From: Aureimonas phyllosphaerae | GTDB lineage: Bacteria; Pseudomonadota; Alphaproteobacteria; Rhizobiales; Rhizobiaceae | NCBI RefSeq assembly: GCF_900113065.1 | Contig: NZ_FOOA01000010.1 | Location: 1-64,000 of the forward strand | Length of the DNA stretch: 64,000 nt | Direction of reading: 5' to 3' | Shown: positions 4,335 to 14,258 of the stretch, in pieces | Position numbering within the stretch: the first letter of the stretch is position 1 | How the letters are laid out: each line of letters opens with the position of its first letter | Translations under genes and position numbers: made by a program | The notes under the pieces: generated by a model | The model's database searches: none | The model's input: the letters and a program-made list of their open reading frames with translations, nothing else | Told to the model about the DNA's origin: nothing

Positions 4335-5143
4335 GGATGGGTCCTTGCGTTCGGGTCGTTCGATGGGACGGCAGGCGAGGCTGCGCCTCGGCGCTCCCCC
4401 ATCCGGTGTGCGGTCTCGAGCATGGTCGCCCGGCGCCGGAACTCGGCACCGATCTCGAAATGGCGGGTGAGGAGGTCGTCGGCCTTCGGTACGTCGCGAT
4501 CGACGATCGCGGAGAAGATGAGCCGGTGGTGGTCGATCAGGAACTCGTCGATCCCCTCGATCCGCATGATCTGCTCACGGCGGTCGAGATGCGAGCGCAT
4601 CATCAGAGCCGAGAGGGAGCCGTAGATGCTGACGAGCGTCGGCGAATGGGCGGCACGTACGATCGCCTCGTGGAAGCAGAAGTCGGCGGCGCCGCCCGCC
4701 TCGACGTGATGAATGGTCTCGGCGATCAGCTTCAAGGCGTCGGCGATCCGGTCGAGATCGGGCTGCGTCGCCCGGCGGCAGGCGAGACGCACGGCATGGT
4801 GCTCGATCGCGATGCGCGCTTCCATGATGTCGTCGATGACATCGGCCTGCTGCGCCAGCACGAAGGAGAAGAACTCGCCGAGGGTCGAGACGTCCGGCCG
4901 CTTCACGATCGTGCCGACGCCATGGCGGATCTCGACGGCGCCGATCATCGCGAGGGCGCGAAGCGCTTCGCGCAGCATGGGGCGGCTGACGTTGAGCCGG
5001 GCCGACAGCTCACGCTCGGGCAGGAGGCAGTCGCCGGTCTTCAACTGGCCCGACAGAAGCTGCTCGCGCAGGAACGAGACGACGCGCTCGTAGCCGCTTA
5101 GGGTGTCGGTGTCGCCGCGCGTGATGGAAACGTCACTGCTCAT
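4331..5143 (-). CDS. FadR-subfamily GntR transcriptional regulator
   Basis: This is a ligand-responsive DNA-binding protein of 270 residues. A winged helix-turn-helix spans roughly residues 17-83, with LLPERELSARLNVSRPMLRE as the recognition unit. It is followed by an all-helical FCD ligand domain with conserved Asp/His metal-binding positions (IVRAAHSP, DHHRLIF, LLTRHFE). It heads the catabolic/transport operon, overlapping rpiB by four bases. A perfect GTGGTC-A-GACCAC palindrome and a second inverted repeat lie just upstream beside a consensus TTGACA, so it probably represses its own operon and releases on binding a pathway metabolite. Confidence 0.92.
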   Translation of the reverse strand: MSSDVSITRGDTDTLSGYERVVSFLREQLLSGQLKTGDCLLPERELSARLNVSRPMLREALRALAMIGAVEIRHGVGTIVKRPDVSTLGEFFSFVLAQQADVIDDIMEARIAIEHHAVRLACRRATQPDLDRIADALKLIAETIHHVEAGGAADFCFHEAIVRAAHSPTLVSIYGSLSALMMRSHLDRREQIMRIEGIDEFLIDHHRLIFSAIVDRDVPKADDLLTRHFEIGAEFRRRATMLETAHRMGERRGAASPAVPSNDPNARTHP

Positions 5144-5157
5144 CAGGTGATCCGTCC

Positions 5158-5197
5158 GTGGTCAGACCACTTAGTGATAAGTGTTCTCTCTTGTCAA
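5158..5197 (-). promoter_or_regulatory. Probable GntR operator and promoter for the catabolic operon
   Basis: The perfect palindrome GTGGTC-A-GACCAC lies at 5158-5170 and fits the TNGTNNNACNA operator pattern known for FadR-type regulators. A second perfect inverted repeat, CACTTA-gtga-TAAGTG, lies at 5168-5183 and shares bases with the first. On the minus strand a TTGACA hexamer (5192-5197) precedes both, so a bound repressor would sit across the -10/+1 region. No strong -10 box was found at the right spacing. The assignment of the regulator to these sites is inferred from proximity. Confidence 0.7.
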
Positions 5198-5474
5198 TGT
5201 GGGAGCGGGCGAGCGATTACTGGGAAGGGTGCGAAACTCGATAGCCATTTGGGCAGGCTACGCAGCCTATGGATATCTGAGCAAAATGAGCTTCGGGATA
5301 GCGATTGGCAAATCTTTGCCGCACATTTCCATGTCTGCTTGTAGTCGGTAGCAGCATGCTTGCTGGTAGATATGCGGGCTATGCTGCCGAACGTATCGTC
5401 GCGACGGCTGGCCGCGATGTGGTCCTCCTTCGCCTCTCATTCGCTCCCCACCAATCGGCAGATCCCTTTGCTGC
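5198..5474. other. Intergenic region between the GntR operon promoter and the island
   Basis: No convincing gene is visible in this stretch. Base composition drops below that of the flanking genes, consistent with a boundary or old insertion scar. Short open frames on the plus strand lack a ribosome binding site and family features. No copy of the GCGGGATTTATGGG repeat found at the other end of the island was seen here. Confidence 0.5.
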
Positions 5475-6383
5475 TCAGACCCACCGGGCGCTCAAGCGCA
5501 CCCACTTGCGCTCCGGCGTGCAGATCTCGACGCTCGTGATGTCCGTCGGGTCGCTGCGAACCTCATAGGTCCGCGTTTCACCCCAACTCTCAACCAGCTC
5601 CGGGACCGCCTCGCTCCAATAGGTACGCCCACCCCAGGACACGCCGCGTGGGCCGATCGCGCGAAACCTGTCAGCACGAAAGAGGCCACCCGGCGCATCG
5701 GCAGGCACGAACCGCGGAACGAAGCCGACTGCGGCCTCATGCCAAAGGTCGAGGGGTGAGCGCTCGATCCCGGGAATGGGGACGGCGTTGTAACGGTCGA
5801 CGATCCAGCGGCGCAGCCGTCTTTCGACGTCCCCCAGCGGAACCTCTTCCCCATCGGGCAGACGGCCCGCGAGCATGTGCGTGATCGCGGATCGACCCTC
5901 TTGCACAGGGTCGACACCGATCCCCGTCTCCTGCGACCAGCGGTCTGCGAGGTCACCGACCATGGGCTCGTAATCCTCGTGCCGCACGATCTCGATGCCG
6001 AGCGCCTGTCGAAAGAGACGGACAGGCGCCGGTACTAGGTCATGCCTTGCATGGACGAAGACACGGTCCGCCACGCCTTCGCAGGGCCAGTACCCAGCCG
6101 CGCCGAACTCCGCTGCGTCCCGGGGCAGGAAGGCGTCGGCGAGGCATCGCAGCACGTCGCCGTAGCTGACGCCGTCCTGTGCGAGGTGGACGCCGGCGAC
6201 CATGAGTGTGCGGCGGCAGATCACCAGGACCGCGACAGGCCGCCCGACCCAGCCGTCGGAGGCTTGGCCTACCGCAGGGGCGGTGGCGCGCAGCTCCATG
6301 GCGAAGGCGCCGACCGTCAGCTCCGCCATCGGCGCCGGACGCGTGGCCTGGGCATCGTCGGCGATGCCGTGGAACATCGTCAT
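5475..6383 (-). CDS. TniA/TnsB-like transposase relative lacking the catalytic triad
   Basis: This is a 302-residue protein resembling the integrase core plus Mu-transposase C-terminal domain of TniA/TnsB transposases, without their N-terminal DNA-binding region. Family-like landmarks in order are GRP (47-49), a VICRRTLMVAG strand, LCxA-like FLPRD (86-89), YWPCEG (98-103), ALGIEI (127-132), RYNAVPIPGIERSP (197-210) followed by LDLW, and a C-terminal beta domain (about 235-300) with WGGRTYW and DPTDITSVEI. The expected acidic triad is missing: no Asp in AFAMEL (26-31), His111 in VFVHARHDL, and DLADRW (144-149) where HIER-like sequence is usual. The start was set at 6381-6383 because AGGAGGG lies just upstream. 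It may be domesticated or decaying; no TniB or TniQ partner is nearby. Confidence 0.65.
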   Translation of the reverse strand: MTMFHGIADDAQATRPAPMAELTVGAFAMELRATAPAVGQASDGWVGRPVAVLVICRRTLMVAGVHLAQDGVSYGDVLRCLADAFLPRDAAEFGAAGYWPCEGVADRVFVHARHDLVPAPVRLFRQALGIEIVRHEDYEPMVGDLADRWSQETGIGVDPVQEGRSAITHMLAGRLPDGEEVPLGDVERRLRRWIVDRYNAVPIPGIERSPLDLWHEAAVGFVPRFVPADAPGGLFRADRFRAIGPRGVSWGGRTYWSEAVPELVESWGETRTYEVRSDPTDITSVEICTPERKWVRLSARWV

Positions 6384-6473
6384 GATCCCTCCTAATGGAT
6401 TGCGAGGCGTCTTGGTTTGCCCGGCCATGGAGGTGATCCTGTTCGCGTCCGGTTTCGTCGATCGGCGAGAGCG

Positions 6474-6800
6474 CTAGCCGTTCGCCCGGGCTTCGGCCGC
6501 GTTCGTCATCCGGACCGCAGCCTCGATCATGCCCATGTGCTCCGCGTACGTCGTGAGCAGGATCGACTCGAGCAGCGCGAGCGTGCCCTTAGCCGCGGTC
6601 TCCCGGTTCAGCCCCTCGTCCTCGATGGCGGCGATGGCGGCGTCGACACGGGCCTTGATGCGTTCGTATGTGGATCCTTCGCCGAGGAACGTGTCCTCGC
6701 CATCGCCCTCGTCCAGCTCGAACGCGACCATGTCGCGGTCGGCCTGCTGGAGCGCCTCTATAGCGAACCAGACCTCATCCTCGTGCTCGATCTCAGTCAT
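6474..6800 (-). CDS. Small acidic hypothetical protein
   Basis: I do not recognise this 108-residue protein. It begins MTEIEHEDEVWF, has an acidic patch (ELDEGDGEDTF) and then looks helical (YERIKARVDAAIAAIEDE, GTLALLESILLTTYAEHMGMIEAAVRM). No signal peptide, membrane segment or cysteine is present. The start at 6798-6800 was chosen because GGAGAGAAGG lies directly upstream; the longer frame to 6920 has no such support. It lies 90 bases upstream of the transposase-like gene on the same strand, within the orphan-gene island. Function unknown. Confidence 0.6.
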   Translation of the reverse strand: MTEIEHEDEVWFAIEALQQADRDMVAFELDEGDGEDTFLGEGSTYERIKARVDAAIAAIEDEGLNRETAAKGTLALLESILLTTYAEHMGMIEAAVRMTNAAEARANG

Positions 6801-7001
6801 GCCTTCTCTCCGTCCTGTGCCGCACAACGCGTCGACAAAGGGCTCCCCGGTCTCGCCGCTTCCGCAAGCCGCCAGAAAACTTTTCCGGCCTGGGGGCCTC
6901 AGTCCGTCACATGCAGTCAATCACGTCGCAGCCGATGCCTCGCGGATCAGGCCGAGCCTACGCCCCGCAGCCGCGAGCGGGGAACGCTTAGAGCCAGCCC
7001 C

Positions 7002-7412
7002 CTATGCCGCAAGCGCCTTCCGCTCCTGCTCGGCATCGAACAGCGAGAACATGAGGTTGCCGATCGAGCCTATCAGCATCCCGTATCGGTACTGGACCTC
7101 GTCGCTCAGCTCGTCGAAGCCCGCCAGCTTGTTCTCGTAAATCGTCAGCAGCGACGAGATGGTCGTGTACGTCCCGCTCGCGGGATGGGGCGCGAGGTAG
7201 CTGAAGTCCTCGTTGTTGATCCGGATGCGGAGGTCGGCGTTCGCCGGATCGGTCAGGTCGACGTCGAGCCGATCCTCCAGGATCCTTGCCACGCCGACCC
7301 AGGGGTCCGCTCCCTCGTCGGCCGAGTAGACGCCCTTGACCTCGAACATCTCCTTCATGGTCTCGTCGCCGATCAGGAGGATGTGGCTGCGGCTGCGGTG
7401 TGCGTTCGTCAT
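7002..7412 (-). CDS. Island protein A1 (hypothetical, paralogue of 8483-8890)
   Basis: This 136-residue protein of unknown function is clearly related to the one at 8483-8890. Shared segments are DPWVGVARILE, RL-x-x-DL-x-DPANAD, NxEDFxxLAP and GTxTTISSLLxxYEN, followed by a hydrophobic GNLM region near the C-terminus. It is cytoplasmic by appearance, with no signal peptide and only a short hydrophobic helix (LIGSIGNLMFSLF). The start at 7410-7412 has GAGGAA upstream. A leader with a conserved sequence, also found ahead of A2, lies 28-58 bases upstream. It alternates with family B genes in the order B2-A2-B1-A1. Confidence 0.7.
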   Translation of the reverse strand: MTNAHRSRSHILLIGDETMKEMFEVKGVYSADEGADPWVGVARILEDRLDVDLTDPANADLRIRINNEDFSYLAPHPASGTYTTISSLLTIYENKLAGFDELSDEVQYRYGMLIGSIGNLMFSLFDAEQERKALAA

Positions 7413-7439
7413 TTGGTGTTCCTCACGCTGGTAACGGGT

Positions 7440-7470
7440 CAAAATGTTCCGAGGTCGGGGGTGGGCGCAC
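7440..7470 (-). repeat. Duplicated leader upstream of A1
   Basis: This stretch is closely similar to 8919-8952 and sits at the same distance (28-29 bases) from the start codon of its A-family gene. Shared blocks, read on the plus strand, are CAAAA-ATG-TTCC, GGTCGG and GGGCGCA. Conservation outside the coding part suggests a promoter or regulator site that was copied with the module. No classic -35/-10 pair is obvious. Confidence 0.55.
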
Positions 7471-7635
7471 GGCGGTCAGCGGGCGCGGTTGGTCAGCGTC
7501 CGAATGAATTTGGGACCCTGCGTGACCGGCCGCCGCCACCTGTTCTCGGTCAGGATACCGCTCGAATGTTCGGCGCGGCTGCCAAGACATCGGATCGATG
7601 GATCGTCACGGCAGGTTCGCTTGTCGCTTAGCGTG

Positions 7636-8127
7636 TCAGGCGGCCATCGCTCCGCAGGACTGCCGATACCTTCCGCATTCGACGCCGAACCGCTGGACGA
7701 GCGGCCCGTCCCCTGGAAGGTAGACGAACGAAGGCATCCTGTACGCCGTGAGAATGCCATAGCCGGACGCCGCCGCAGGCGCGGGTTCGACATCGACGCT
7801 ACCGCCGTAGACCTTCGACAGGTTCTTGGCGACACGCCACAGTTCGTCGTCGAGCCCGAAAGGGGCATTCATCGGTACGAAGACCTGTGTCAGGACCAGA
7901 CCGCCGGCCAACGTGAAGACGACTTCCGGGTTGCGGTCGGACCGCAGCGTCTCGTCGACGACCTGCCTGATCGCAAAGTACGGCATCGAGTCGCTGATGC
8001 GCATCTCGTCTGACAGCGAACGCTTCTCTTCGAGGTTGGCGAGTCCGCGTATGTCCAAGGGACGGTTCCTCACCATCTTGCAAAGCGCCCGGCGTAGCTC
8101 CGCCGCCGTGTCGATCGTGCCCGTCAC
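7636..8127 (-). CDS. Island protein B1 (hypothetical, paralogue of 9418-9894)
   Basis: This 163-residue protein of unknown function is related to the one at 9418-9894. The two share PEVVFxLxGGxVLxQ, a DELWxVA segment, GGxVxxxPAP, GYGIL/GFGIL-xAxRMP, and a C-terminal RFGVECGxxxQS. A GTG start at 8125-8127 is preferred because GGAGAA lies upstream and the paralogue starts at the equivalent place; an in-frame start at 8271 would add 48 basic residues with no counterpart in B2. No membrane segment or signal peptide is evident. Its stop lies about 220 bases before A1 on the same strand. Confidence 0.65.
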   Translation of the reverse strand: MTGTIDTAAELRRALCKMVRNRPLDIRGLANLEEKRSLSDEMRISDSMPYFAIRQVVDETLRSDRNPEVVFTLAGGLVLTQVFVPMNAPFGLDDELWRVAKNLSKVYGGSVDVEPAPAAASGYGILTAYRMPSFVYLPGDGPLVQRFGVECGRYRQSCGAMAA

Positions 8128-8482
8128 GCGGTTCTCCGGTTTCTTCCGTGCGAGTTCCTGTCGCGCCTGCCTTGGCAAGCCGTCATCGACGACAGCGCGG
8201 CGCCGAACGGCAACCCTCCTCGTCGGAATGCGGACCCGATCCTCTGCCAACTTCCCCTCCCCTGCGTTCATGGTTCACTTCACGCCTTTCCCGCCTCGAA
8301 CCGATGACGGTTCGAGAACATTTGATCCGAAGCGGACGGTCCGCTCTTCGTCGCGGAAGGCCAATTGGGTTTCGAATGGCCGCGCGCGGCCGAGCGATTG
8401 GACTGCGATGCCGTTTTGGTCGGACGCTCACTGACCGGGCGGTCCGATGCGGCGGTCCCGCCAAGACGGGACGCCTTGACGG
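8128..8482. other. Intergenic region between A2 and B1
   Basis: No convincing gene is seen here. The frame of B1 continues upstream to 8271 but without a good start. A perfect inverted repeat lies at 8295-8316 and is listed separately. The remainder shows no recognisable promoter box. Confidence 0.45.
8295..8316. promoter_or_regulatory. Perfect 8-bp inverted repeat upstream of B1
   Basis: CTCGAACC and GGTTCGAG flank a six-base spacer (gatgac). It lies about 170 bases before the preferred B1 start. It could be an operator or a terminator for A2; it is followed by AACATTT rather than a true T-run on the plus strand. Role unknown. Confidence 0.4.
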
Positions 8483-8890
8483 CTAAGCCGCCATGGGTCT
8501 CGGGAAGCGCTCTTTCCAGCCGATGGATCTCATCAGGTTCCCGATCATCCACATGAGCATGGCCAAGCGGGACGGGATCTCGCCGGTCCACGTGGCCCAG
8601 TCACGCGGCACGTTTTCGTAGACTGCGAGCAGGGACGAAATCGTCGTGAAGGTTCCGGTTTCCGGATCCGGCGCGAGGAAGGTGAAGTCCTCGTCGTTGA
8701 CGATGATGGCGACGTCCGCGTTCGCGGGATCGGCGAGGTCGAGGCCCAGCCGTTCCTCCAGGATCCTCGCCACCCCGACCCAGGGGTCCTCGCGCCCTGC
8801 CGCCAAGTAGGCGCCCCTGGCCGCGAACATGGCTTCCCTCGTCTCCTCATCCAACGTCAGCTGGTGCAGGCGCGTTCGTCTGTTCGGCAC
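8483..8890 (-). CDS. Island protein A2 (hypothetical, paralogue of 7002-7412)
   Basis: This 135-residue protein of unknown function is the second member of family A. It shares with A1 the segments DPWVGVARILEERL, DLADPANAD, NDEDFTFLAP and TTISSLLAVYEN, and ends with a Met/Trp-rich hydrophobic stretch (LAMLMWMIGNLMRSI) that could pack or touch a membrane. It uses a GTG start (8888-8890) with AAGGAG seven bases upstream. The N-terminus is basic (PNRRTRLHQL). Similarity to A1 is high and even across the protein, which indicates duplication and maintained selection rather than a decaying copy. Confidence 0.7.
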   Translation of the reverse strand: MPNRRTRLHQLTLDEETREAMFAARGAYLAAGREDPWVGVARILEERLGLDLADPANADVAIIVNDEDFTFLAPDPETGTFTTISSLLAVYENVPRDWATWTGEIPSRLAMLMWMIGNLMRSIGWKERFPRPMAA

Positions 8891-8918
8891 GTGAGGCTCC
8901 TTGCGACTTCGATCACTG

Positions 8919-8952
8919 CAAAAATGGTTCCCCGGGTCGGAGGCGGGCGCAA
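8919..8952 (-). repeat. Duplicated leader upstream of A2
   Basis: This is the counterpart of the leader at 7440-7470, placed 29 bases upstream of the A2 start. Both carry an A-run next to ATG-TTCC, then GGTCGG and GGGCGCA. A weaker resemblance is seen near 9951-9975 upstream of B2. Shared non-coding sequence at fixed spacing suggests co-regulation of the modules. Confidence 0.5.
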
Positions 8953-9229
8953 GTATGTGGACAGGAATTTTTTCCGGGCTGATCGATGGAGGCGGTCGTT
9001 TGCCCCCGTCGGGAGCTTGTTGCCTCGACCGCCGGTTGGGAGATTGCCCTCCATACAGGGATGGCGCGCATGCCAGGCAGGCTGAGCGTCATCTTCCCGT
9101 GATCAGCCGTGGCCAAAGGATTCAGCCGTCCGGCGAAGGGTGCCGTCGATCGGAAATGTTTTCCGAGCCAGGCAACGCCTACGAGTTCCGCGCTGTCGAT
9201 CGAGAGCGGCAACGCTAGGCGTTCAGTCC

Positions 9230-9421
9230 TTATACCTTGCGGACCGAACGGGATGCCGTCGGCATGCGGTCGGCCAGCATCCGCGCGAGTTCGCAAACCT
9301 GCGCTTCGGATGGCCGCCATCCCCTCTCGCGCAGCATGTCGCCCAGCCGTTGGAGGGCGTCGATCTCTTCATCCGACCGATCGCTCCTGCCGACCGGCTC
9401 GCATGCCGTCTCGCGCGTCAA
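9230..9421 (-). CDS. Possible small protein overlapping the end of B2
   Basis: This is a 63-codon frame beginning with TTG whose first bases overlap the B2 stop (TTGA, 9418-9421), an arrangement that allows translational coupling. The product has a charged helical look (SDEEIDALQRLGDMLRERG, SEAQVCELARMLADRM). No family is recognised and no equivalent was found after B1. It could be real or chance; the remaining 8891-9229 stretch contains only the A2 leader and no other gene that I can support. Confidence 0.35.
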   Translation of the reverse strand: MTRETACEPVGRSDRSDEEIDALQRLGDMLRERGWRPSEAQVCELARMLADRMPTASRSVRKV

Positions 9422-9894
9422 GCCGCCACCCGTTCACGGGACTGCTGGAACTTGCCGCACTCGACGCCGAAGCGTTCGATCAGCGGCCAGTCGTTCGGTC
9501 CGTAATACCCCGGAGGCATTCGGAACGCCTCGAGGATGCCGAAGCCGTAGGCGCTGGACGGCGCCGGCGTCAGCCAGACCTTCCCGCCATGGAGGACGGA
9601 CGCGTCGCCTGCCACCTTCCAGAGCTCGTCTTCGATGGCAAGGTCGCCATCCGCCGGCACGTGGATCTGCCCCAACACCTGCCCGCCGCCCAGGATGAAG
9701 ACGACCTCCGGCTTGTCGCCCGAACGCAGCACGGCGCCGATCGCATTGTGGATATCGAGATTTGAGATCGACGCCGCGAGATCGAACTTTTTGTGCACGT
9801 GCCGGACCTCGTAGTGCACGTTGAAATTCCCCGCTTTCAGTGCGGCGGCGAGCGCGTCGCGGAGTTCGTCGATCGTTTCGATCTTGTCTGCCAT
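9418..9894 (-). CDS. Island protein B2 (hypothetical, paralogue of 7636-8127)
   Basis: This 158-residue protein of unknown function is the better-defined member of family B. It starts at the ATG at 9892-9894 with GAGGAA upstream. It has an N-terminal helical section (IDELRDALAAALKAGNF), then PEVVFILGGGQVLGQIHVP, DELWKVAGD, GGKVWLTPAP, FGILEAFRMPPGYYGPNDWP and RFGVECGKFQQS. The shared block with B1 covers the last 95 or so residues and the two diverge at the N-terminus. It is the first gene of the minus-strand island set and is divergent from the 10250 pair. Confidence 0.68.
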   Translation of the reverse strand: MADKIETIDELRDALAAALKAGNFNVHYEVRHVHKKFDLAASISNLDIHNAIGAVLRSGDKPEVVFILGGGQVLGQIHVPADGDLAIEDELWKVAGDASVLHGGKVWLTPAPSSAYGFGILEAFRMPPGYYGPNDWPLIERFGVECGKFQQSRERVAA

Positions 9895-10249
9895 GGGGCG
9901 TTCCTCGGTCCGTTTCCGACGGTCGATCGGGACCGCCGAAAAATGCTGATGGCAAAAAATCGGGAGCGCAAGCGGGTGGACGAAACGTGAACGGTCCTGA
10001 AGAAACGGAGCGCCGCCCACTCGTCGTGTTCCGGGGCATGGAGGCGTTGGCTGCGGGATACGCATCGCCTCTTCGTCCGGTCGAGCGCTCGCATCGGAAG
10101 GTTTAAGCAGAGGCGGCCGATCCGGACGCGAGCGCGGTCGGAGGAACGGTTTCGAAGTCCGATCGCGTCAGCTGGGGCTTGCGGGCTCATCCGATCCGGG
10201 GGACCGTTTTGATGTCGCACTGAGAAGCGCTCAGGAGGAGGTACAAGGA
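9895..10249. other. Divergent intergenic region in the island
   Basis: No gene is supported here. The stretch separates the minus-strand B2 gene from the plus-strand pair at 10250 and must hold promoters for both. An A-rich segment (CGAAAAATG and GCAAAAAATCGGG, about 9935-9965) resembles the A1/A2 leaders weakly. Just before 10250 there is a strong AGGAGGAGG ribosome binding site. Confidence 0.45.
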
Positions 10250-10627
10250 ATGGCCGAAAGGACTCGCAACGGCGCTGAAGGATCCAGCCGCCATGCCGAT
10301 GACGGTGGCCAACGCGCTTGGTTCGCCTTCGGCAATGACTGGAGGTGCGATCTCGTTGGCATCGGCCCGGATACCCCCGTCAGGTGGGTGCTGGACCGCG
10401 ACAAGAAGGCGATCATCTGGCTCAATCTGCACGAGGTCGAAGACGGCCCCTGGGTTCTGGGCACGGTGGCCGAAGGGAAGGATTTCGAGCGGAAGCTGCT
10501 ACGGGATCACCCCGGGCTGCTCGACCGCGACGAGTGCCCTGGCGTTACGATGAGCGACACGTTTCCCGCTTGGGCGCACGCGGTCCACGACTTGCGTGAC
10601 GACGGCCGTTGGGAGTTCGTACGCTGA
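10250..10627 (+). CDS. Island protein D1 (hypothetical, diverged paralogue of the next gene)
   Basis: This 125-residue protein is of unknown function. AGGAGGAGG precedes the ATG. The core VRWVLDRDKKAIIWLNLHEV, GPWVLGTV, DHPGLLDRDE and SDTFPAWA aligns with IRWVFDRED, LGWVRGT, NDPRFLSDLDE and SDEMPDWP in the downstream gene, so the two are diverged duplicates. The protein is acidic and Trp-rich, with no signal peptide or membrane segment. Its TGA overlaps the next ATG by one base (TGATG at 10625-10629), which implies coupled translation and perhaps a heterodimer (inference). Confidence 0.65.
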   Translation: MAERTRNGAEGSSRHADDGGQRAWFAFGNDWRCDLVGIGPDTPVRWVLDRDKKAIIWLNLHEVEDGPWVLGTVAEGKDFERKLLRDHPGLLDRDECPGVTMSDTFPAWAHAVHDLRDDGRWEFVR

Positions 10628-11115
10628 TGGTCGTCATCCCGTTCATTGGGTCCTCGAAAGTTCCGCCCGAGGTAGAGTTGCCCCTCGAGGTGGAAGAGAG
10701 CGACGTTGAGGGTCGCTACGTTTCCGTCGGCAAGTGGCAGCACTTCTTCGACGACCGGCCGACCTGGTCCGAAATCCGATGGGTGTTCGATCGGGAGGAC
10801 TGGTCCGTCGCGTTCCTGGAGATCCTGAACCCGGTCACCCTAGGATGGGTCCGCGGCACCAAGGAGGAGGCATCGAGCGTCGAGATCGACCTGACCGAGA
10901 ACGACCCGCGCTTCCTGAGCGACCTCGACGAATGGGGGCTGTCCCAATCCGACGAGATGCCAGATTGGCCATGCATGGGGGCGGAACTGAAGGCGCGCGC
11001 CGAACTCGTGGAGATCGAGCGGCTGGAAGAAAGAAGGCGGTGCAACGCGGTCCGGCTTCGGCTCCCGGAGGGCCCGGAGGTGCGGACGGTGAGCATTCGG
11101 TTCGTCGGCCCCTGA
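10627..11115 (+). CDS. Island protein D2 (hypothetical, diverged paralogue of the previous gene)
   Basis: This 162-residue protein is of unknown function and starts at the ATG within TGATG shared with D1. A core related to D1 (IRWVFDRED to SDEMPDWP, roughly residues 45-115) is followed by an extra C-terminal part with a charged helix (ELVEIERLEERRR) and a beta-like end (VRLRLPEGPEVRTVSIRFV). No export signal is seen. A TTG start at 10609 is possible but would overlap D1 more and has no better ribosome site. It is the last plausible gene before the repeat array. Confidence 0.63.
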   Translation: MVVIPFIGSSKVPPEVELPLEVEESDVEGRYVSVGKWQHFFDDRPTWSEIRWVFDREDWSVAFLEILNPVTLGWVRGTKEEASSVEIDLTENDPRFLSDLDEWGLSQSDEMPDWPCMGAELKARAELVEIERLEERRRCNAVRLRLPEGPEVRTVSIRFVGP

Positions 11116-11390
11116 CGAGGTCTGGACGGAACGCAGGCTGTCGGCGCTGGCCATTAGGATCGTGAATGCGGACGCGGCTGAGTGCTTGGCGGCAGCCTCC
11201 AGCTTGCGTCGGCCGATCACCGTAGCTGTCCCCCACCGCACCGCCACTGTTCGTATAAGGGGCCGCCGACCGCGAACGGTTGAGGTGTCCCCACCCGCAT
11301 CCGCAGACGGCTTTTGGCTGGTTCCTCGTCGAAAAATCCCGGGAGTTCGGCTCTCGGTCGATCCATTCCAAGCGCTCTTGCGTGCCTTTT
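11116..11390. other. Intergenic region before the repeat array
   Basis: No convincing gene is present. Short frames occur on both strands but lack ribosome sites and recognisable motifs. The stretch could hold remains of a mobile element or replicon, given the repeats directly after it, but nothing in it proves this. Confidence 0.4.
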
Positions 11391-11513
11391 ACCCATAAAT
11401 CCCGCAGAGCAAAATGCGGGATTTATGGGTGTTTGGCGGTCGAAAACGCGCAAATGCGGGATTTATGGGGGTGCTCTGCGGGCTTTATGGGGGTGAATGC
11501 GGGATTTATGGGG
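11391..11513. repeat. Iteron-like array of TGCGGGATTTATGGG[GT] repeats
   Basis: Five copies of a 16-base unit are present. One is inverted (ACCCATAAATCCCGCA, 11391-11406), and four are direct at 11415-11430, 11455-11470, 11477-11492 (one change, GGGCTTT) and 11498-11513. The inverted copy and the first direct copy form a perfect 16-bp hairpin with an eight-base spacer. The last three direct copies are spaced 22 and 21 bases apart, that is two helical turns, as expected for protein-binding iterons. Reading frames differ between copies, so this is not a coding repeat. It could be a plasmid-type origin, a transposon end or a regulator array. Confidence 0.75.
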
Positions 11514-11696
11514 TAGGCGACACCTGTCAAGGAAAAGCCAGGACGCAGATCCCCGCCATCGCTGGCGGATGGTTGCCGTCCGATCCGCCGAGCCATTCGC
11601 AAAACCGCTCGCGAATGCCCTGGAGCGTCTTCTCCCGGCGTCCGACGGAGTTAAAGGACGTCCCACTCCGCCGAACTTCACGGCACCGACCGCCCG
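11514..11696. other. Intergenic region downstream of gyrB
   Basis: This is the 3' flank of gyrB. No gene is supported and no clear T-rich stem-loop terminator was found. Composition returns to that of the core chromosome towards gyrB. Confidence 0.4.

Positions 11697-14258
<2,562 letters not shown>

Follow-up and report, generated by a model that had tools for sequence, protein, structure and literature searches.

The window analyzed here, 64,000 nucleotides of Aureimonas phyllosphaerae (assembly GCF_900113065.1, contig NZ_FOOA01000010.1, positions 1 to 64,000), encodes downstream of gyrB a protein, here called P1, that consists of the RNase H domain and the Mu-type beta-barrel of a TniA/TnsB-type transposase. 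The active site of P1 reads Gly25-His111-Asp147 where active relatives read Asp-Asp-Glu, and orthologs were found in Aureimonas sp. ME7 (91% identity) and Aureimonas ureilytica (76% identity). The maintenance of intact P1 in three species with two catalytic residues gone suggests a new, non-cutting use. As judged from the sequences, P1 is a real, conserved, and unusual protein with a putative function.

An initial annotation, made from the letters of the window alone, had described an open frame at 5475-6383 without stating its strand. The frame is open and encodes 302 residues, but it lies on the minus strand, and the plus-strand frame in register at the same positions is interrupted by stops. 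All of the landmarks named at that time (GRP, YWPCEG, GIEI, and a C-terminal Mu-transposase beta domain) were found in the minus-strand frame, and the proposed AGGAGGG ribosome-binding site was located on the same strand ahead of the ATG. AGGAGGG is kept in ME7, and its counterpart in A. ureilytica is AGGAAG. The first ATG of P1 in the window is present in neither ortholog, and the start common to all three genes is Met3, at position 6377.

Kinship to TniA/TnsB had been proposed together with a profile or structure comparison as its check, and both comparisons bore it out. Profile-profile alignment by hhalign matched P1 to TniA/TnsB with a probability of 99.7% and an E value of 7e-26, and the best Foldseek match of the predicted fold was TnsB, with an E value of 9.1e-12 from a low-confidence model. 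When a profile of the three P1 orthologs was used in hmmsearch, PseTnsB of the PDB was recovered at an E value of 3.5e-6 and ShTnsB itself only at 1.6. PHROG 310, "transposase," matched P1 at 1.4e-6, the Pfam domain Mu-transpos_C (PF09299) scored 21.4 bits against a cut-off of 21.7 and was borderline alone, and no match to P1 was found in NCBIfam or PADLOC. A structure predicted from the three orthologs alone reached a predicted local distance difference test (pLDDT) score of 37, and a second model was made by adding three transposase cores from viral contigs to the three orthologs, for a total of six alignment rows. TniA of Tn5053-like elements and TnsB of Tn7 and of CRISPR-associated transposons (PDB 7pik, 7svw, and 8aa5) likewise have an RNase H core followed by a Mu-type beta-barrel, with the same landmarks. 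We conclude that P1 has an RNase H-like core homologous to that of TnsB and a Mu-type beta-barrel, the latter spanned by the hhalign alignment.

The catalytic triad of ShTnsB is D205, D287, and E321 (excerpted text of PMC9527255), and the ShTnsB residues opposite P1 were numbered by hand along the hmmsearch alignment. MAFFT, hhalign, and hmmsearch agreed in placing His111 of P1 opposite the second catalytic residue (D2), as the annotation had it, and Asp147 opposite the third (E3). The first catalytic residue (D1) was placed opposite Gly25 by MAFFT only, as the hhalign and hmmsearch alignments begin downstream, and another MAFFT alignment, which included distant viral relatives, had a gap in P1 at D1, such that the exact partner of D1 is less sure. 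No Asp is present within residues 10-43 to take the place of D1. The earlier statement that the first strand, given as residues 26-31, has no Asp is consistent with that absence, although the strand was modeled at residues 23-31. In the predicted model, Gly25 falls within the first strand, His111 falls right after strand 107-110, and Asp147 falls in helix 139-153, which are the usual sites of the residues of an Asp-Asp-Glu (DDE) triad. His111, His114, and Asp115 are invariant across the three orthologs, and the third catalytic position is Asp in both the window and A. ureilytica and Glu in ME7. Thus, the reported lack of Glu at the third position is literally true of the window, but the acidic character is kept, and replacement of all three catalytic positions was an overstatement because the third was either conservatively changed or retained. 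We conclude that P1 has lost D1 and D2 and that it does not carry an intact D, D, E triad.

P1 is also trimmed at both ends. The first strand begins only about 20 residues into P1, and the upstream gene (6474-6800) is 90 bases away, which leaves the N-terminal DNA-binding part absent, as had been noted, and with it the domains that bind transposon ends. Moreover, the stop codon comes directly after the barrel in all three orthologs, and the two full-length genus relatives nearest to P1, of 832 and 788 residues, extend about 245 and about 150 residues further than the barrel. Unlike TniA and TnsB, P1 thus combines loss of D1 and D2 with the absence of N-terminal end-binding domains, of anything after the barrel, and of an adjoining TniB. 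With D1 and D2 lost and no end-binding domains, P1 should not be a transposase of known kind.

The initial annotation favored repurposing over recent debris and proposed that the ratio of nonsynonymous to synonymous substitution rates (dN/dS, or omega) across homologs would tell the two apart. Purifying selection was found, with dN/dS of 0.13 (window-ME7), 0.30 (window-A. ureilytica), and 0.25 (ME7-A. ureilytica) by NG86 and of 0.09, 0.17, and 0.13, respectively, by YN00. Gene pairs for which Biopython returned no dN/dS value were left out; values were obtained for all three P1 pairs. In a codon model, of which only the likelihoods were compared, the log-likelihood was -2023.8 with omega free and at best -2112.9 with omega fixed at 1 over eight kappa values, a rejection of omega = 1 by about 89 log-likelihood units. 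Differences at codon positions 1, 2, and 3 numbered 17/11/78, 47/30/91, and 42/25/93 in the three pairs. When neutral evolution of P1 was simulated with 0.1 to 0.3 changes per site, each lineage acquired 2.4 to 6.3 stops on average, and no stop was present in any of the three copies. Between the window and A. ureilytica, residues were kept at 14 of 15 positions in the first strand, 22 of 24 in strands 2-3, 19 of 20 in the His111 loop, and 58 of 70 in the barrel, and the helix with the third acidic residue was less conserved (11 of 17). The altered pocket is, on the three sequences available, among the best-kept parts of P1. Confinement to a single genome would have counted against repurposing, and three species hold P1 intact. 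We conclude that P1 is unlikely to be recent debris, because three orthologs under purifying selection lack the same two catalytic residues, are trimmed alike, and stop at the same position.

The distribution of P1 is patchy. Orthologs were present in 3 of 21 genus genomes, and on a gyrB tree of 19 of the genomes the three carriers were scattered, which forces at least three changes. The block containing P1 was not found downstream of gyrB in the 16 other genus genomes compared, a set that left out G015 and G017 and in which the stretches of G002 and G011 are little informative, as they end less than 500 bases from gyrB at a contig end; G002 shares just about 110 bases, in the repeat region beside gyrB. 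"Domesticated," in the sense of a fixed host gene, is therefore a term that P1 does not merit, because it belongs to an accessory block of orphans and its carriers are scattered on the gyrB tree. The stretch of P1 and its upstream neighbor w6474 matched ME7 at 86.6%, versus 85.1% on the gyrB side, and matched A. ureilytica at 82.8%, versus 79.6 to 87.3% in four core blocks. Since P1 is no less diverged than its neighbors, old presence with repeated loss fits at least as well as recent transfer.

Beyond the genus, P1-like proteins were not encountered. A pattern scan of genome contigs with P1 matched 19 stretches, two of which encode a relative, and these are the two orthologs. Searches of the order (8 of 397 genomes matched) and of the class (5 of 385), each scoring at most five or six candidates per genome, gave no P1-like protein and, beyond the genome of the window, only distant matches with open frames of 457 to 845 residues. 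Twelve plasmid records matched, all below 60% identity; the annotation of eight names a Mu-transposase C-terminal or DDE protein, and the sole record named only "hypothetical protein" is a 705-residue relative beside TniB and TniQ. Neither a phage search nor a scan of viral contigs with the P1 orthologs returned a relative, and of three viral-contig scans with full-length TniA queries, one returned three distant transposases and the others added none.

Table 1. Positions of P1, its parts, and neighboring features (window coordinates unless a locus is given)
Feature	Position	Strand	Remarks
P1, catalytically altered, trimmed TniA/TnsB core	5475..6383	minus	302 residues from first ATG
Gly25 codon, opposite catalytic D1	6309..6311	minus	MAFFT alignments; gap there in one further MAFFT alignment
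His111 codon, opposite catalytic D2 (ShTnsB D287)	6051..6053	minus	MAFFT, hhalign, hmmsearch
Asp147 codon, opposite catalytic E3 (ShTnsB E321)	5943..5945	minus	MAFFT, hhalign, hmmsearch
RNase H-like domain, P1 residues 19-153	5925..6329	minus	predicted fold, VIA-align/Foldseek to TnsB
Mu-transposase C-terminal beta-barrel, P1 residues 233-302	5478..5687	minus	PF09299, predicted strands 240-299, hhalign
AGGAGGG ribosome-binding site	6387..6393	minus	sequence, before P1 ATG
38-base run identical in all three orthologs, possible DNA site (weak)	5496..5533	minus	shortly before stop
Block shared with ME7, partly with A. ureilytica	5471..11104	.	from P1 stop codon towards gyrB
w6474, acidic 108-residue orphan upstream of P1	6474..6800	minus	same direction as P1, 90 bases apart
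Orphan B2 (type B), 136 residues	7002..7412	minus	
Orphan A2 (type A), 211 residues	7636..8271	minus	77% identical copy beside TniABQQ set in G002
Orphan B1 (type B), 135 residues	8483..8890	minus	80% identical copy beside TniABQQ set in G002
Orphan A1 (type A), 158 residues	9418..9894	minus	
Orphan, 125 residues	10250..10627	plus	paralog of 10609..11115 orphan
Orphan, up to 168 residues	10609..11115	plus	
gyrB	11697..14147	minus	fixed flank of variable region
ME7 defence-like genes, PDC-S06 candidate and QatA homolog	L113:3433-5679 and 10984-12759		

The genes between gyrB and P1 form a small island of seven orphans, for which no Pfam match above cut-off, no clear PHROG match, and nothing in PADLOC was found; three of the block orphans were compared with plasmids and gave no match. 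The guanine-plus-cytosine content of four 2-kb bins over the block was 64 to 65.5%, versus 66 to 73.5% in the other bins, and most of the neighboring block proteins are acidic. w6474 and P1 co-occur in the same direction in all three species, and a second w6474 copy, 59% identical and with no P1 match nearby, is present elsewhere in A. ureilytica, which indicates that the pair is not obligatory on the w6474 side. Four of the other orphans make up two A-B pairs, and their order, A1-B1-A2-B2 (window 7002-9894), is as after a tandem duplication. Relatives of type A occur in other genus genomes too, and two such stretches hold, by eye, a relaxase-like gene. Of 39 inverted pairs at 5100-11800, the 25 longest included no convincing terminal inverted repeats. 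REP-like (repetitive extragenic palindromic) repeats (ACCCATAAATCCCGCA) lie at window 11391-11515, just downstream of gyrB, and part of that stretch is shared by G002. Gene calls in the stretches of relatives came from a crude script, and some strands, GntR and gyrB among them, were wrong.

In G002, relatives of A2 and B1 follow a TniA-TniB-TniQ-TniQ set, the TniA of which keeps the triad, and thus A2/B1-type genes probably travel with TniABQ-type elements; the ends of the G002 element were not found. A second TniA fragment, with an ERFFRT motif, was noted by eye in the same genome beyond the set and the orphan pair (L035:9680-9865). In A. ureilytica, the island holds a TniQ gene (L043:9364-11265) on the gyrB side of the orphans. 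No other TniQ and no TniB were found in the A. ureilytica genome. The genome of the window carries TniB and TniQ on other contigs (C11 and C15), none of them linked to P1. TniQ is linked to P1 only in A. ureilytica. The set on contig C11 (L041) is TniA-TniB-TniQ-TniQ, and its second TniQ frame also matches DUF4096 (IS4/5-type transposase).

We consider it highly probable that P1 is a conserved, non-catalytic, exapted core. That it is a binding module with partners in the island is a tentative proposal, and on the reading as a whole, of P1 as a TniA core that was exapted and serves for binding without catalysis, we hold the balance to be even. P1 would have arisen from a TniABQ-type element that lost mobility, an origin suggested by the A. 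ureilytica island, which keeps TniQ in a genome with no TniB found. P1 is separated from the end-binding domains and from the part beyond the barrel, its active site should no longer cut DNA, and purifying selection keeps it as an accessory gene of the island. P1 may now work as a non-catalytic binding module, probably with the acidic w6474 protein, the first candidate partner because of its direction and its co-occurrence in all three species. The rebuilt Gly25/His111 pocket and the barrel would be the binding faces. Conservation is highest in the first strand and the His111 loop, which make up the altered pocket, and in strands 2-3 and the barrel, and binding is therefore likely to involve these surfaces. 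A more specific version, in which P1 and w6474 form a two-gene module whose disarmed core would bind some factor of transposition or defence and keep mobile elements in the variable region downstream of gyrB under control, is unlikely; if true, it would make P1 an RNase H transposase fold that was exapted in a prokaryote purely for binding or regulation.

Several observations weigh against a non-catalytic binding module. The third catalytic position of P1 is still acidic. P1 has an isoelectric point (pI) of 5.35 and a charge of -9, versus pI values of 9.5 and 7.0 for the cores of two full-length relatives, and such acidity argues against plain DNA binding or simple DNA coating. Four block genes and gyrB, subjected to the same codon test, also favored a free omega (NG86 values, where given, of 0.08 to 0.63), and so selection does not single out P1. 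The idea that P1 works with the orphans is drawn only from their neighborhood. Finally, the orthologs number only three, and the second structural model reached a pLDDT of 53 and a predicted template modeling score of 0.50, with a large root mean square deviation from TnsB, half of its six alignment rows being distant full-length transposases.

The best rival to the binding module is that P1 is a dominant-negative or immunity factor, the dead core of which would enter or obstruct transpososomes assembled by incoming TniABQ elements. Of the four protomers in ShTnsB, two are structural, with DDE sites not set for catalysis (excerpted text of PMC9527255), and a dead core with the same fold as TnsB could therefore occupy such a place; moreover, TniA, TniB, and TniQ genes are present elsewhere in the window's own genome. 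P1, however, ends at the barrel, and its identity to the full-length TniA proteins matched in the genus does not exceed 28%. In addition, P1 is maintained in A. ureilytica, a genome in which no TniB was found. TniB was present in two of the three P1 genomes and in 8 of the 18 others, a pattern without exclusion that neither supports nor excludes inhibition. Overall, an inhibitor of TniABQ elements seems unlikely.

Alternatively, P1 could be maintained in part as a DNA target, with its 3′ end serving as a landing site. Tn7, for example, targets the 3′ end of glmS. Similarity ends about 4 bases past the P1 stop (around 5471) in all three pairwise comparisons, the flanks beyond it differ in all three species, and the longest three-way identical run, of 38 bases, is just before the stop. 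In ME7, the sequence beyond the stop includes, within 13 kb, defence-like genes that match PADLOC PDC-S06 (8e-266, AAA_13) and QatA (1e-195). The statistics of the conserved run are nonetheless weak and post hoc (0.018 for the last 20 codons with identical residue and 0.067 for the best window), the stretches searched held no further copy of the site, no clear terminal repeats were among the longest listed, and selection spans the whole protein. We regard a landing site as distinctly improbable.

Slow decay, in which P1 is a transposase fragment that is open by chance, would account for the patchy distribution, for the trimming at both ends, and for the E3 helix being among the less conserved parts. 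It would not account for the absence of the 2.4 to 6.3 neutral stops expected per lineage from all three copies or for the rejection of omega = 1 by about 89 log-likelihood units. As a yardstick for debris, 394 family genomes were searched with Mu-transpos_C; 136 had a match, and among the best 150 matches, which did not include P1, seven were open frames shorter than 400 residues, two of them identical in sequence. All seven were pieces of ordinary TniA, four with at least one catalytic motif in frame and three with only the later part, and none resembled P1. Chance survival of a decaying fragment is thus highly improbable.

Continued activity of P1 as a metal-dependent nuclease or transposase through other residues is very improbable: the third position stays acidic and His111, His114, and Asp115 are invariant, but there is no carboxylate at D1, the E3 helix is less conserved, and there is no end-binding domain. 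For an antisense gene overlapping P1 as the object of selection there is a precedent in ardD, which lies antisense within tniA of Tn5053 and relieves EcoKI restriction (excerpted text of PMC3533173). Such a gene is the least probable alternative. Stops interrupt every full-length antisense frame of every ortholog, and differences concentrate at P1 third codon positions. The three orthologs do share open antisense stretches, 73, 67, and 114 codons long, and most neighbors are acidic. Two of these stretches are clearly less conserved than P1 (in the longest, window versus A. ureilytica, 65 of 114 antisense and 87 of 113 P1 residues agree), and in the 67-codon stretch antisense and P1 residues agree about equally, which leaves a small chance of a short overlapping gene.

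A non-catalytic P1 would have few counterparts in bacteria. Eukaryotes offer well-known cases of exapted DNA transposases, and to our knowledge few catalytically dead bacterial recombination enzymes with a kept role have been described, TnsF being one. No report of a P1-like protein was found among the titles and abstract openings retrieved by searching one open-access library. The nearest precedent in kind is TnsF, which derives from a recombinase, is catalytically inactive, and was co-opted by Tn6022 (excerpted text of PMC10293859). Like P1, TnsF is a recombination enzyme without catalytic activity, and it has a non-catalytic job; unlike P1, whose role is putative, TnsF is of tyrosine-recombinase origin, is part of a working transposon, and was shown to be needed (same excerpt). 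In the case of ardD, a second function was likewise found at a tniA-type sequence, encoded antisense to tniA (excerpted text of PMC3533173). For P1 the second function is putative, no full-length antisense frame is intact, and conservation favors the sense protein.

P1 illustrates a way of distinguishing repurposed transposases from debris, in that the frame, the rewritten residues, and the signature of selection agree, whereas the seven short family relatives were simply broken TniA. P1 would be a compact example of an exapted dead core on the TniA/TnsB scaffold, one that is small enough for direct testing.
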